Positions 4,606-47,349 of a DNA stretch of 64,000 nt are shown here, in pieces. The first letter of the stretch is position 1. The number at the start of each line of letters is the position of its first letter. The notes below the pieces were generated by a model. It was not told where the DNA came from and ran no database searches. It saw nothing but the letters and a program-made list of their open reading frames with translations. The stretch covers positions 47,501-111,500 of the forward strand of contig CAUYUJ010020756.1 in assembly GCA_963575745.1 (NCBI GenBank), given 5' to 3'. This DNA is from Prorocentrum cordatum (taxonomy: Eukaryota; Sar; Dinophyceae; Prorocentrales; Prorocentraceae). The translations under genes were made by a program, and so were the position numbers.

Positions 4606-6257
4606 TCGTGGAGAGCACCAAGCGGGCTGACACTCTCGCGGATTCATTCGAACAAGTGCAGTGGGAACTTACTTATGCAACCCTTTCACTCAAGGAACAC
4701 AACGACATGGGGGAGACACTGCCAATCTACTCCGGCACTTTCGGAATGCAGGAGCTTCAGGATGCACAGCGGGCTTTAGGTAGGGGGAAAACTGCAGGCG
4801 TAGACGATGTACCCCCAGAGCTTTGGCAAAAATTGGCACGATCTCCGGAAGCAGGCAAAGAATTGTTGAAATTCTTTCAGAGGTGCTGGGACGAAACATA
4901 TATCCCTCATGACTGCCATACATCAATCATCGCACTTTTACATAAGAAGGGCGACGCTAGTTTGCCAGATAACTACAGGACGATTTCTTTATTGACGATT
5001 GGGTATAAGCTCCTTGCTTGGATGCTGCAAAGCCGTAATGGAGGCGCCGAGAAAAGAATACGACCCAACCAGTTCGGATTTCGTCCTGGCAGAGGCACGG
5101 CCCAGGCCATTAGCATCGCTCGGCGGATGTTCGAAGCAGCGCAGACAGCGCAGGCACCTGGTTTGATTGCAATGTTGGACTGGTCCAAGGCGTTTGATCG
5201 GGTAAAACATGATGCATTTTTGGACGCTCTTCGAAGATTTGGCCTACCTGTGGACATGCTGGATATGGTGGCAGCGATTTGCAAATGTAGACATGTCAGA
5301 TTAAAAGACCCAGCTTTGAATTCAAGCCTGCGGAAACAACAAGCAGCAGGAATTGCCGAAGGCTGTCCTCTTTCGCCTTACCTGTTCATTTTCGTGCAAA
5401 GCGTGATGTGTTTCGACATCCACCAGCGCATGGACGGCCTCCACGTTGACATCCAGGAGCTGGAATACGTGGTATGCCGTGACCTTCTTTACGCAGATGG
5501 TACCATGCTCATAAGCAGCGACTCCGGGAAGTTACAGACTTTACTCGACATTGTAATCGACGAAGGCAAGAGGTACGGTCTGGAATTGAATTGGGGCAAG
5601 ACTGCATGCATGAGAGTGCACAATGATGGCGTGATTGTCTCCCCCACTGGTGCGCCACTGACAGCGGTGGAGCAAACAAAATATATTGGTGGCCTGTTGA
5701 ACGTCAATTGCATAGCAAAGCCGGAAGTGACCAGGAGGATCGGTGAAACCAAATCCGCCTCTCAGAAATTCATCAGCCGCGCCAGAAACATATGACTGTA
5801 CAACGCGATCGATTTGCCAAAACTTCTGTATACTTTGGGAACGCTTTTGCTGCTGCAGGCGGACGAAGACCGTTTAGGCAGCTTCCACACGCAACGTTTA
5901 AGACGAGTTCTAAGAATTCCAAGCGCATATGTTTCACGAGTGTCTAATAAAGAAGCTTTGGAACGAGCGGGGGAACACCCACTGAGCTCCACACTTCGCT
6001 GGCGCCAAGCGGCGCTGTACAAGAAAATTGCAGCGTTACCCGGAGACGAACCTCTCAGACTTTTAACTTGCCAGCCTGGCACCGATCTGCCCAGAAGATG
6101 GGCGCACCGGCGACGCAGGGGAAGGCCTAAACAGCAGCGGGCCCCTTGCGTGTATAGTCTTCTGCCTACACATGCGCTTTACGTGCGGCGTTTCTGTTAC
6201 CCCTTCTCCTCTCCGCCCCTTTTCCCTCCTCTCGGGTCGGGCGAAAGGGGGGGATAG
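4590..6257 (+). pseudogene. LINE-1 ORF2, reverse transcriptase part
   Basis: Continues ORF2 after a frameshift. RT blocks in order: GRGKTAGVDDVPPELW, IIALLHKKGDASLPDNYRTI, IRPNQFGFRPGRGTAQAI, AMLDWSKAFDRVKHDAFLDA (block A, catalytic Asp present), GIAEGCPLSPYLFIF (block B) and LLYADGTMLIS (block C). Block C has lost its second aspartate (YADG for YADD), which should abolish polymerisation. A TGA at 5793-5795 interrupts the frame between ARNI and LYNAIDLPKLLYT; it plausibly replaces TGG. The frame then runs to 6257 with the usual post-RT tail, including RRWAHRRRRGRPKQQ. Last residues after about 6150 may be read-through. Confidence 0.85.
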
Positions 6258-42180: not shown

Positions 42181-42234
42181 TGTGTGTATATGTGTGTATA
42201 TATATATATCAGTTCAGTTCAGTTCAGTTCAGCA
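42181..42234 (-). repeat. (CA)(TA)(TGAAC)n tail at the LINE-2 3' end
   Basis: On the minus strand this reads (TGAAC)4-5, then (TA)n, then (CA)n. It probably marks the 3' terminus of LINE-2; tails made of short repeats are common for LINEs. Confidence 0.6.

Positions 42235-42378: not shown

Positions 42379-42384
<6 letters not shown>

Positions 42385-42449
<65 letters not shown>
42385..42449 (+). repeat. (GA)n microsatellite
   Basis: About 64 bp of GA dinucleotides in the 3' UTR of LINE-2 (CT on its sense strand). Confidence 0.95.
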
Positions 42450-42466: not shown

Positions 42467-45328
42467 CTACTGCTCCTGATCACCAAGAAAATCTTGCCGA
42501 CGTAGATGAGGCCGTCCGACTCGTCGTTTGGGTTGGCATCGGAACCGCGGTTTCCACTTGAGCAGTCTGCAGCTCCACTTGTCCAGGTTCCCTTGGGGCG
42601 CCCTCTCTGCGAACGTTGCCTTTCTTGTCATTTGCGCCGCCGCCCAATTGACGTGCCCCCATTCGGCGCGCTCCGAATCCACTCTCTTGGTTGCTCTGTG
42701 AATAGAATCTACCCACGTTTCGTCTGCAGCACGTGAAAACCGAAAGATCTTTCTGGTCATCTTTCGCCGCGTTGTCCGTAGCTTATCTTTGAACCCCTGT
42801 CCAAATCCAACATTCGCATGCGTGCAGAGCCGTCGGGGCCACGACAACGCCAACGAGTTTGAGCCGGGACTTCAACGGAAATTATCGAGAGCATAAACTT
42901 TCTTTGAATTTGGAAAACACCGCCGAGCTGAATTAAGTCTGTTCGCAAACTCTACTTCGTGGAAGTTGCCCATGCAGAGCTGTCTCCCAAGATGCCTCTC
43001 TGCTCCCGTGACGGGCGCTACGCCCACATCATCATCGCCGCCAACGCGTACGCATGCAGGTATACGTCCAGAAGTGTTCGTGAGTACCTTCGTCTTGCTC
43101 ATATGAACCTGTAAGCCACATGTTGATGCTTCTGCCTTGAGGTCGGACAACATCTCTGCGACGTCTGAATTGCTTAGGGCTTACAAGCAGCACGTCGTCC
43201 GCAAAACGTAAATTTGTGAGCGGATCACAGGGCGAATTAACGACCATGCCATAGTAGTGAGCTAGCCGTCTCTTGTCAAGCCCATTCCAGCGACGCTTCA
43301 ATTTCCGAAAGCACACCTCCATCGCAGCGATGAGCAGTAGTGCGCTTAGCGGATCTCTCTGCTTTGCGCCTCGTTCCACGTTGAATCTTCTAGACTCCTC
43401 TCCGGCCAAAACAACGGCCGTCTGGTCGCGGTGTAGCTTCTGCAGTAAAACAACATATGAATCGTCCACACCAAGCTCGCATAAGACATCCCACAAAGCA
43501 GCATGGTCGACCGTGTCGAACGCCTTCTCGAAATCAACTAAGCCAAACAAAATATCTACGTTCCATTCAGAGCACCCCTCGATCATTAAAGTGGCAGCAA
43601 GCAAATGGTCTGTAGTCGAAACCCCTTCCTGTCGGCAGCCTGATCGGCAGATTGCCCTGCAATGATGAATGGTTGGAGCCTGTTACACAACATCTTCGCG
43701 AAAACCTTATACATGATCGGCAAGATTGCGACTGGCCGGTAATACTTCGGAAGGTTCGGATCACCCTCTTTGAACAGGATTACGAGGCGCGTTGTTCGCC
43801 ACCTGTCTGGCGGTTCGGCCTCTGGCTGAATGGTCTCGTTGAAGGGATCCAACATGGGGCAACCAAACTTACGGCCAGTGTGTTTGAGCATCTCTGCAAC
43901 CACGCCGGAATCGTCTGAGTATTTGCAGGATTTCATGCTGGACAAAGCATCTTCCAGCTCTGAATTCGTAAAATCTGGGATTGCAGAGCCCCTGCCTGGG
44001 CGCCGAATATCCGGATTCCGAGCAGAATGCAATCTCTCATAAAAGCACACAAATACTTTTGCAATGCCAGTTCCTGAATTGTGTTCCACGCCATTTTCGT
44101 CAACTATGCTGGCAATGTGTTCCTTCTTCTGCGCGCGCCCTATCTGTGGTAGCCGAGATACCCCGCAAAAGTCACCGAGCATCTTGTCGATAGTGGCCGT
44201 CTTCTCGGATTCAACCTTTTCCCGGACGAGTTGTTTGATCTTCTTGCTCAGGACGAGTCGCTTATTATTCTTCTCGGCGCTGGTCAGATCTTGTCGCCCA
44301 CGGAACACTTGGCGTTCAGGAATTAACGCATCGAGTTCTGCATGTTCTGCCGTATGAGTCTTGCTGCGGTCGTTTTTCCTCCTCGGCAACGCCTGCTTCG
44401 CGGCGTCAAACATGGAACTTTCCAGAAAAGTTGCGTTTTGGTCTACGCCAGACACATGAGCAGGAAACGCATCGGACGAAACATCGAGTATTGAACCATG
44501 TTTCTTCTTGTTCACCGTCTTGTCCCAGTTGGGTGCATGGGCCTTCTTCTCCCGGGGAAGACCATGGTAAACAACCATGCGGAGTAAGGGCACCCTGTGA
44601 TCTGAACCCGTGTCCATCCAGTCAACAGCGCCACACCATCGTACATCCCTACGAGATCGCACGTGCACTAAAATGTAATCAAATTGTTTGGCGACCCCTC
44701 CGTTCAAGTACGTCCACAACTGTTCCTCGCTGTCTCCCCAACATGTGTTGGCAAGTGCGAGCTTGTTGTCTTCGCGCCACTGGAACAGTACATCGCCCCG
44801 GTCGTTGCGACAACGTATATTGTCTGCGCCCATGGTGTCGTCATCGTCGTCCACGGTCCGGGGGCCCACTTCCGCGTTGAAGTCTCCGGCCAGCAACACT
44901 CGGCACCGACTCATGTTCGCGTTGCGCAACGGTTCGTCCAATATGGCGTATACAACGTCAACATAGTAGTCGTCCATCGCACCGTGTGGCATGCAGACAG
45001 CAAAAACACGATAACGAATACCGAATACGAAAAACTCGAGGACAGCGGCACGGTCATTGACAGTGAAAAAACTGTTGTGCGACCATCTACTGTGTAGAAG
45101 AAAGCCCACCCCATTCTGGCATTTGCTGCCGCCGCTGCCACACCACGTGTGGCCACCATCAGTCGTAAATACTTTTCGCTTCTCTTCCCTCCAAGTTTCT
45201 GCGAAAACGAGAACATCCCATCGCGGGGAGCCAAGTTCAAATAATATCGCCGCAAGCCTCTCCTTGAAGTTCATGAATGAGTGAATGCTGTAGCTGATCA
45301 CCACAAATTCGACGCCGTTCTTATGCAT
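42467..45328 (-). pseudogene. LINE-2 ORF2: endonuclease-reverse transcriptase, frameshifted
   Basis: Starts at ATG 45328. Endonuclease: VISYSIHSFMNFKERL, LVFAETW (residue ~44), VLLAGDFNAEVGP (~145) and TGSDHRVPLLR (~232), so Glu, Asp-Asn and the terminal Asp-His are present. A basic linker contains KKIKQLVREKVESEKTATID. RT: WRTTRLVILFKEGDPNLPKY, then a frameshift near 43605, then LLAATLMIEGCSEW, LFGLVDFEKAFDTVDHAALW (block A), ERGAKQRDPLSALLL (block B; usual QGDPLS has R for G) and NLRFADDVLLVS (block C intact). Further frame changes occur near 43155, 42880 and 42840 before the basic end KRRVGRPHLRRQDF. There are no nonsense codons within blocks, so decay is recent or partly assembly error. 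Confidence 0.85.
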
Positions 45329-45506
45329 GGAGCCCGGGGCGGTCAGAAACGGGACGTCTCCTGAGATACCTGAATACTTTCCTCTCCCTCCTCCCGTACT
45401 GCGTGCAAGGAGCCCTTGTTCTTGAAACTGTGAGGAAGCCCTTGTAGATGCCTTTTATGTGCCTGGTTGTGCTGGTACGTTCCCGGAATACGCCCCGGGC
45501 TTTTCT

Positions 45507-46509
45507 CTACTCATTGTTCCTCCGCGTACCCTTCCACTCCACAACCCCCTCCTCCACCTTCTCCTTCACGTCCTCAGCGCTGTCTTTCAGGACCATCTTT
45601 GCGTTGTCATTTACCCACGCCACTGTCTTGGAATTAACTTTAACAATTCCTTTCTTCCATACAATGCGGACGTCCTCCGGTTCGTAACCGATATCCTCGA
45701 TCAGCCAATGTTTGGTGAGACCCAACATTTTGTCCCGCACTCTCTGCTTGTACGTACGTTCATTGGTGAACCACAAAGTCCGGCTATCAGATACCTGCTT
45801 GCTCGCGTTGCGAATCTTTTTGTAGAAACCGATCTTGGAGGTTTCCGTCTGGGAACTCGATCACTCCCACGCGGGCCGAGTTGCTGAACGTAAACACCTT
45901 GCTTAAATTGTGCCGACGGGCTCCGTCCGAAAGAAAACCTTCGATGACTTGCGCTATCTCGTCCTCCTCCGTCTCCTCCGTGAACCCCCCGACGATGACC
46001 TGAAGTTCCCTGTTTTCTCCCACCTCGCTCTCTTCCTCCCCTTGCTCCACCTCCTTCCCGTGGTGCTTCCCGAAGCTCACGCCCTCCTCCCGCATCTTGC
46101 CCAAAGCTTCCTGGACATCCGCTGCCACGAGAGGCTCGACCGTGCCCTGTAGCTCTTGCTTAGTTACGAACTCCGCCCCGACTTCCGCTTTGATATTCTC
46201 CACTTCCACCTGCACCTCCTCCACCCGTTCCTCAACCTCCTTTGCAACTTTCATCGCCACCTCCGCTTCTTCCTTCGCCTCTTTCATTTGTTGCTTGATG
46301 TCGTTCAGATCACTCGTGATGCCTTGAATCTGACCGGACAATCGAAGCTCGAAAGCCTGGAACCACGGTGGGGTTGAAGTGTCGACGATCGCCACCTCCG
46401 TCGAACCCGTCGCTGAATCGTCTTTCAATGCATATTCTTTCTGTGCCTTCTTTTTATCTTGAGTTGAGCCTGTGGGCCCCCCTTGACGTTTGACCTTGGC
46501 ATCCTGCAT
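45507..46509 (-). pseudogene. LINE-2 ORF1 protein: coiled coil, RRM-like domain, C-terminal domain
   Basis: ATG at 46509. Residues ~1-50 are basic/polar. Residues ~55-140 form a heptad-rich coiled coil (LNDIKQQMKEAKEEAEVAMK, VEERVEEVQVEVENIKAEVG), expected to trimerise. Residues ~168-225 are RRM-like (LQVIVGGFTEETEEDEIAQV, ARVGVIEFPDGN). A single frameshift near 45830 then leads to GFYKKIRNASKQVSDSRTLW and FTNERTYKQRVRDKMLGLTK, a C-terminal domain ending EWKGTRRNNE. The layout copies the L1-type ORF1p RNA chaperone (coil-RRM-CTD). Without the frameshift it would be about 334 residues. Confidence 0.75.
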
Positions 46510-46563
46510 GCCTGCCCAGAGCGGAGCAGAAAGCCTGGATATTGTGCAATGTAGCTGGTGTCC

Positions 46564-46584
46564 AGTGAGCCTGGATGGATACGG
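46564..46584 (-). other. Decayed second spliced-leader relic
   Basis: Directly 3' (2 nt) of the clear relic, the minus strand reads TCCGTATCCATCCAGGCTCA. It agrees with DinoSL at about 16 of 21 positions and keeps both ends (TCCGTA and GGCTCA). Tandem relics of this kind are expected when an SL-bearing retrocopy is transcribed and trans-spliced again. Confidence 0.6.
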
Positions 46585-46586
46585 AA

Positions 46587-46608
46587 GCTTGAACCAAAAT
46601 GGCTACGG
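46587..46608 (-). other. Dinoflagellate spliced-leader (DinoSL) relic at the LINE-2 5' end
   Basis: The minus strand reads TCCGTAGCCATTTTGG followed by TTCAAG. Against the 22-nt DinoSL (DCCGTAGCCATTTTGG then CTCAAG) it matches at 21 of 22 positions; the only change is C to T in GGCTCAAG. It lies 78 nt upstream of the ORF1 ATG of LINE-2, in the sense orientation. DinoSL is normally added to mRNAs by trans-splicing, so its presence in genomic DNA marks a retrocopied mRNA. There is no GT donor or SL-RNA-like hairpin downstream, so this is not an SL RNA gene. Confidence 0.85.
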
Positions 46609-47349
46609 AGCCTATATATCTGTATATGATTCGCATGGATTCCTTCGCTGTGTCGACCCATCGCCGCTGGGGAGATTCGCTCCCCAGCGGTCCCGGCGCC
46701 AGGAGGCATGGCCGCCGACGTGCCCCAGGCGTCTTCGAGCGCGCGGGCGGGGAGCGGCTGGCGACGCTGGGAGCCTGGCGCGAAGGGGCGGAAAGGGGGG
46801 TGATGGAGGTGGGCGCAGGTGCCCAGCCTGCATCCCAAATTTCGGGCAGCGGGCCGGTGTTATGCGCGACCGGCCGCGTTCGGGCTGGATGTGCGCAGCT
46901 TGTTTGCAGGGGCGGCTGCAGAGCGGTGCGGAGCTCCGGCAATACGGGATGGCCGGAGCTCAAGCAATACGGAACTCCGGCCATCCCCAGCGGCGTGGCC
47001 TGGGCCTCACTGGCCGACCTACCCCCCGAGATGGGGATATAGGCCGTTCCCTTCGGGTTTCGAGGGGTGTATCCCTAACTGGGGTGGTAATTTGGTGGGG
47101 TCTCGAAGGGGATGGGGATGGGGATGGGGATGGGGATTGGTTGAACGATACTGAGGAGAGGCGATGCTGCAAGCGTCGACGCTGCGGGAGATCAGACAGC
47201 AGCATCCGTGGCCCTGGAGGGGGCAGGAAGACTCGCTGGGAACGGGCCGCCGGCGCCGCAGCAGCACTGCGGGCCGCACCCCGCTGGGGACGACGACGCG
47301 CTGCCTGGCCAAGATTGGTGGGCGGGACTCCAGTGGGGCGACCTCCTAA
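46609..47349. other. Non-coding stretch with (GGGGAT)n
   Basis: 47108-47140 is a perfect GGGGAT tandem (five units). 46920-46985 contains inverted GGATGGCCGGAG/CTCCGGCCATCC words with repeated CAATACGG. No gene recognised. Confidence 0.5.

Follow-up and report, generated by a model that had tools for sequence, protein, structure and literature searches.

Two tandem matches to the dinoflagellate spliced leader (DinoSL; SL below) lie at the 5' end of a LINE in the window, by which we mean the whole 64-kb stretch of Prorocentrum cordatum DNA that was analysed. An earlier reading made from the letters alone (the sequence-only reading) regarded them as traces of repeated trans-splicing. The locus raises the question of whether SL addition is a regular part of the life cycle of an element that encodes its own reverse transcriptase, or whether the SL arrived by another route. 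We favor, with a probability of roughly five in six, the view that LINE RNA is processed like host mRNA, that is, by read-through transcription, DinoSL trans-splicing, and copying to the cap, and that this leaves stacked relics.

The spliced-leader pair and the LINE in the window

The outer, younger SL occupies 46588..46609 on the minus strand and reads TCCGTAGCCATTTTGGTTCAAG (46609-46588), which agrees with DinoSL (TCCGTAGCCATTTTGGCTCAAG) at 21 of 22 positions. With a 21-nt SL pattern and up to 3 mismatches, it was the single match in the 64-kb window, and 100 shuffles gave none. As in DinoSL relicts, the 22-nt leader stands at the 5' end and is joined directly after CTCAAG. The sequence-only reading had recognized this minus-strand match correctly, with its 21/22 agreement, and had placed its outer end at 46608; the SL is indeed there, but it ends at 46609 with a 5' T and is one base longer.

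Inside the outer SL, a 2-nt spacer, CT (46586..46587, minus strand), is followed by the inner, older relic at 46564..46585 of the same strand (TCCGTATCCATCCAGGCTCACT, 46585-46564). The relic matches DinoSL at 16 of 22 positions and was the sole position with at least 16 matches besides the outer SL on both strands of the 64 kb. The remaining 5' UTR (46510..46563, minus strand) places 54 nt between the end of the relic and the ORF1 ATG (46509). The age grading of the pair (21/22 outside versus 16/22 inside) has the same direction as in other stacks. The window pair does not show the arrangement in which the newer SL directly abuts an older relic truncated at TAG|CC; it has a full-length inner relic and the CT spacer. 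TAG|CC junctions are present in other copies (L009, L013, L025, L065, and L086). In L014 and L017, full-length second SL relics (TCCGGAGCC... and TCCGTAGCGG..., respectively) abut the first SL without a spacer; these pairs resemble the window pair except for its CT. The CT would fit a scrap of an earlier flank, presumably left behind an AG acceptor.

A DNA search with the window 5' end gave two matches, the window itself and L030 (contig C1185), its nearest relative. Their alignment (74%) covers the remaining 5' UTR, extends as far as the inner relic, and does not continue outside it. L030 starts with GCTCAAG-TAAA-CCATTTGGGCTCAAG-TAAA-CCATTTGGGCTCACTGG, and its CCATTTGGGCTCACTGG lies at the place homologous to the window inner relic, the core of which is thus common to the two diverged copies. 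We therefore consider the inner relic to be real and older than the split between the window and L030, with outer parts that differ. The second, weaker match that had been proposed 2 nt inside the first is thereby confirmed.

The element that follows has the features of a LINE, namely an endonuclease and a reverse transcriptase (RT) on one strand, a repeat-type 3' tail with a target-site duplication, and variable 5' truncation. On the minus strand, the first part of ORF1 (45790..46509, 240 aa), with weak Pfam matches below the cut-off only, continues in another frame as a second part (45510..45860, 117 aa) that is conserved in relatives. The N-terminal open segment of ORF2 (43589..45454) contains the endonuclease (PF03372, E = 2e-11); then come the RT segment in a shifted frame (43035..43682; RVT_1, E = 1.3e-8) and a further ORF2 segment (42470..42871) with no Pfam match. 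The reading frames of this copy (also numbered L031) are broken at several points, and a PDB search gave no match. The 3' tail, (CTGAA)n at 42211..42232 on the minus strand, is found also in L033, L034, and L037. A candidate target-site duplication, GATATATA, lies on the left at 46613..46620, followed by GGC and then the SL, and on the right at 42203..42210, directly after the tail; it is weak and its site is TA-rich. A clear 12-nt duplication, CCTTTGCTATCC, accompanies the (CTGAA)n tail of L034, whereas none was found for L033 and none credible for L051. Four copies (L034, L054, L069, and L087) start further in than their relatives. The 3' part of the window LINE contains a 34-copy AG/CT dinucleotide run (42382-42449), and a CT run near the 3' end was seen also in L050 and L054. 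Elsewhere in the window, positions 4626-5732 of the plus strand contain part of another LINE reverse transcriptase (tblastn 1e-25 with L047).

Spliced leaders at LINE starts in the genome

The searched assembly comprises 4.13 Gb in 21,875 contigs and contains 33,832 SL matches with up to 2 mismatches, compared with 9 for the reversed pattern. The ORF2 search gave at least 73 matches (71 of 6,225 candidates scored), and the ORF1 search gave at least 150 (150 of 1,406 candidates scored). SL cores matching at 12 or more of 15 positions were found within the first 1.5 kb of 11 of 30 ORF2 loci oriented to the element strand (L031, which is the window, L038, L041, L044, L046, L050, L051, L052, L055, L056, and L060, the last being the same copy as L030), a count that is a lower bound because the upstream stretch need not reach the element start; no antisense core score in the 30 loci was above 11. 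The pattern GGCTCAAG-TAACCATTYTGG, with up to 1 mismatch, gave 28 matches in the genome and none in the control. Stacks in which SL units recur every 18 nt (GGCTCAAG-TAACCATYYTGG) were observed on contigs C471, C18478, C14178, and C18767, where they adjoin ORF1 or ORF2 matches.

For a position-anchored test, 27 five-prime regions (251 or 301 bases) were chosen by ORF1 position down the ranked list of ORF1 matches (27 of 150 places); copies already included elsewhere, matches with the N-terminus unmatched, and some others were left out. An exact stretch of at least 8 nt from the SL 3' end was present upstream of ORF1 in 16 of the 27 regions in the sense direction and in 0 of 27 in antisense. 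A looser test gave 17/27 versus 1/27, and shuffles gave a mean of 0.41 and a maximum of 3. Other copies thus carry an SL at the same place as the window. The exact 8-nt suffix was missing in 11 of the 27 (L064, L069, L073, L074, L076, L079, L080, L082, L084, L085, and L087), which weighs against the favored reading. L076 passes the looser test, L069 and L087 look 5'-truncated beside their relatives, and decayed SL-like sequence is present in L073, L076, and L082; none was recognized in the other misses.

The resemblance could in principle be due to chance, or the LINE could have landed beside an SL gene or relic. This explanation draws on the abundance of SLs in the genome, and otherwise on the view of a single copy only; the window SL had no matches in shuffled sequence, and many copies with unrelated flanks are headed by an SL. 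We therefore reject it as extremely improbable.

The reverse relationship, that is, what intact SLs head, was studied at 20 plus-strand sites taken from 100 exact SL sites listed, with the context unseen at the time of choice and about 6 kb downstream included for each. LINE coding sequence on the same strand (tblastn, 1e-6) was found downstream of 12 of the 20 (L009, L010, L011, L013, L014, L015, L019, L022, L024, L025, L026, and L028), compared with one opposite-strand case (L020; sense versus antisense, p = 0.0004). As background, 2 of 20 window tiles (ten 6-kb tiles on two strands) had a LINE match, one of them being the window element. The count of 12 was obtained after four SL-locus proteins (L009, L010, L011, and L015; self-hits excluded) were added. 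The window's own ORFs had given no tblastn match at 1e-3 in 28 SL loci, and proteins of the LINE loci from the 5'-end and ORF2 searches matched only three loci at 1e-4; we attribute the early negative result to the distance between LINE families. Pfam RT or endonuclease domains were detected in 8 of the 12 LINE-headed loci (27 chosen open segments), above the curated cut-off in L009, L011, L022, and L025 and below it in L010, L014, L015, and L028; the calls for L013, L019, L024, and L026 come from tblastn alone. No LINE was detected at 8 of the 20 sites, a further point against the favored reading. In L001-L008, for which only 1.5 kb downstream was included, a LINE match occurred in L008, upstream of its SL. 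The SL-headed LINE at L011:319-5545, about 5.2 kb, has a single open frame of 1,444 aa with endonuclease and RT; it is flanked by TA arrays on both sides, and its protein had no match at 1e-10 in a large protein set.

Runs rich in TCC (15 sites) or GGA (5 sites) were observed within 40 nt upstream of the SL at 20 of the 28 sampled intact sites (L001-L028); the corresponding counts were 26 among 1599 40-mers of the window and 37 among 2500 40-mers from the downstream parts of the loci. Such runs could be preferred targets, or they could offer splicing a pyrimidine tract already in place; elements that insert into (TCC)n pyrimidine runs may even find there the acceptor site for the next round. 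Counted by eye, the base before CCGTAG is T in 26 of 27 sites (L001-L003 and L005-L028) and A in one; this suggests that all 22 nt of the SL are retained, although within TCC runs this T may derive from the run itself.

Since SLs head LINEs of many families in this genome, SL addition appears to be a routine step of the cycle. Whether host trans-splicing is obligatory for most LINE families here, replacing a promoter or ribozyme of their own, with most intact SL copies being LINE starts, seems to us evenly balanced. If it is obligatory, the LINE machinery would be tuned to SL-capped RNA and would be a natural source of dinoflagellate SL-tagged retrogenes, and earlier rounds would be recorded in part by the SL stacks.

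Differing arrays, stacked relics, and the proposed cycle

We compared 32 pairs of copies, each pair from one family (11 groups in all), and at E 1e-3 found no similarity upstream of the arrays; the short ORF1-anchored regions cover between a few tens of bases and about 150 in that direction. In each pair, the longest alignment begins on its left side at the array, within it, or deeper in the element, and the remaining shared pieces at this threshold (4 pairs) consist of SL units only. Conserved sequence upstream of the SL, which would have spoken against a start at this point, was thus not observed in any of these pairs.

The arrays themselves differ between copies that are 97-99.8% identical. 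L063, L066, L067, L068, and L069 have a common 5' UTR, with local alignments of 97-99% (93% for L066/L067, where the alignment includes the arrays); L066 starts with SL-CGCCGTTGGCTCAAG-GCTCAAG, L067 with SL-GCTCAAG-TTGGCTCAAG, L063 with TTGGCTCAAG, and L068 with TGGCTCAAG-ATGTTGGCTCAAG, where the shared part begins further in, and L069 starts without an SL. L033, L034, L038, and L075 likewise have different starts, with no SL in L034; the close copies L061 and L062 have different SL stacks; and the flanks are unrelated in all three of these groups. L050 and L056, with 99.8% identity starting at AGCCATTTTGGCTCAAG, differ by an extra outer SL-like unit in L056 only. Judged from the sequences, such differences would fit repeated SL addition.

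They bear on the view that the SL was captured once and then inherited as part of the 5' UTR DNA, for example as a promoter, as in the TTT(G) idea for retrogenes, and is not re-added in each cycle. Related families (the window, L030, L033/L038/L075, L041, and L044/L065) resemble one another in their degenerate inner relic, as a single capture would have it, and SL relicts have been proposed as promoters (in the accessible part of PMC6050394, section 7). However, near-identical copies have different outer arrays, and canonical outer SLs stand beside decayed inner ones. Moreover, relics retained inside new copies imply that transcription started upstream of them, which argues against the relic as the sole promoter proposed there. 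We consider a single capture unlikely.

The SL could also have been added during reverse transcription, by a jump of the LINE RT from its template to SL RNA or to an SL-bearing mRNA, with no trans-splicing. LINE RTs are known to switch templates, and slippage of the RT could account for the duplicated units that share GCTC. Template jumps would be expected to join at various positions, whereas most junctions in the arrays examined lie directly after CTCAAG, and this route appears very unlikely.

In 53 LINE 5' regions, 88 SL-like units were found in sense and 5 in antisense; this set is no frequency test because part of it was chosen by, or after seeing, the SL (27 regions by ORF1, 12 SL-anchored, and 14 chosen after SL presence or absence was seen, including the window and L034, which has no SL). 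Of the 26 regions that contain at least two units, 12 have a better-preserved unit outermost than innermost, 2 show the reverse, and 12 are tied (sign test, p = 0.013); the window was left out, as its inner relic is too decayed. The 2 stacks that grade the wrong way count against the favored reading, as do shared family-specific inner units and GCTCAAG repeats, which fresh SL addition does not predict. Runs of the GCTCAAG heptamer were observed at LINE starts, with three after the first SL in L038 and five in total in L070.

In L051, L052/L040, L055, and L060, inner units contain recurring letters specific to the family and have the appearance of local duplications, and thus the relics are no strict counter of rounds. 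It is possible, on a tentative estimate somewhat short of even, that many inner units outside the window pair arose by local duplication at GCTC/GGCT words through RT or replication slippage, in which case the stacks would contain more units than there were cycles; the caveat concerns how rounds are counted and leaves SL addition itself untouched. The units TGCTATCTCGCTCAAG, CAACCTCGGCTCAAG, CAATCTGGGCTCAAG, and TAAACCATTTGGGCTCAAG, which repeat the letters that open the unique 5' UTR, and the heptamer runs of L038 and L070 speak for such duplication. The classic SL|CCATTTTGGCTCAAG stacks (L009, L013, L025, L065, and L086), in contrast, are expected from a second SL, and near-identical copies with different arrays also speak against it. 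The sequence-only reading had taken the tandem pair to suggest a second trans-splicing; differing arrays in close copies strengthen this idea, but stacks do not always give a clean count of rounds.

In the cycle that we propose, a LINE copy would be transcribed from outside within a longer pre-mRNA. The host would splice the DinoSL exon onto an AG located at the element start or shortly before it, as the junctions directly after CTCAAG suggest, and the RNA would thereby gain a defined, capped 5' end. The LINE RT would copy this RNA from the 3' tail to the cap, or stop early; copying to the cap would give a new copy that starts with an SL. The cDNA would be inserted with a target-site duplication, of which the 12-nt case in L034 is the one clear example seen. 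In the next cycle, a new SL would be placed upstream of the decaying one or replace it, so that 5' UTRs would gather stacked, age-graded relics, with short spacers that may be scraps of former flanks. The suggestion that SL addition belongs to the life cycle of the element gains support from the 16 of 27 ORF1-anchored copies and from the 32 pairs without shared upstream sequence.

Comparison with known systems

No report of DinoSL at LINE starts was found in the accessible parts of PMC12014239, PMC6050394, PMC11453091, PMC3229502, PMC8045281, PMC7245778, PMC3942190, PMC7789003, PMC3315495, PMC8190864, and PMC10235124, nor did any paper listed by the literature searches point to one, as judged by titles and opening lines of abstracts. 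We provisionally regard SL-headed dinoflagellate LINEs as new to the literature, within a coverage that lacks most subscription papers and bioRxiv preprints.

As far as the accessible text of PMC3229502, PMC12014239, PMC7245778, and PMC6050394 goes, DinoSL relicts are known from dinoflagellate retrogenes of the type described by Slamovits and Keeling. The LINEs resemble these in having an SL or truncated SL at the retroposed 5' end, tandem relics with the younger outside, and several TAG|CC junctions. They differ in that the carriers are RT-encoding elements themselves, from several families, and in that stacks reach three to five units with variable spacers and junctions. In the accessible part of PMC6050394 (section 7), the RT behind SL-tagged retrogenes is stated to be unknown, with LTR elements favored; SL-headed LINEs put forward the LINE machinery as a natural suspect. 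Endogenous dinoRNAV elements are similar in that SLs lie near retroposed RNA sequences (within 500 bp of 6 of 26 RdRp ORFs) and LINEs are the suspected machinery; unlike the LINEs here, they are non-autonomous cargo, and the accessible text does not mention SLs at LINE starts (PMC10235124).

A retrotransposon mRNA can receive a spliced leader also in Caenorhabditis elegans, where the LTR retrotransposon Cer1 has SL1 on its 2.4 kb spliced mRNA and not on its 8 kb RNA; in contrast to the LINEs here, Cer1 is not described, in the accessible part of the report, as having a genomic copy that begins with an SL (PMC3315495). The trypanosomatid elements L1Tc and ingi are LINEs in a host with SL trans-splicing and polycistronic transcription, and, in the accessible text of PMC8190864, they have the Pr77 promoter, a ribozyme that frees their RNA from cotranscripts, and unspliced transcripts. 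In the Prorocentrum LINEs, in contrast, the host SL seems to set the 5' end. This suggests a route by which a LINE could obtain a defined, capped 5' end with no promoter of its own, unlike the trypanosomatid LINEs, and by which its insertions would gain a readable, if partial, record of earlier rounds.
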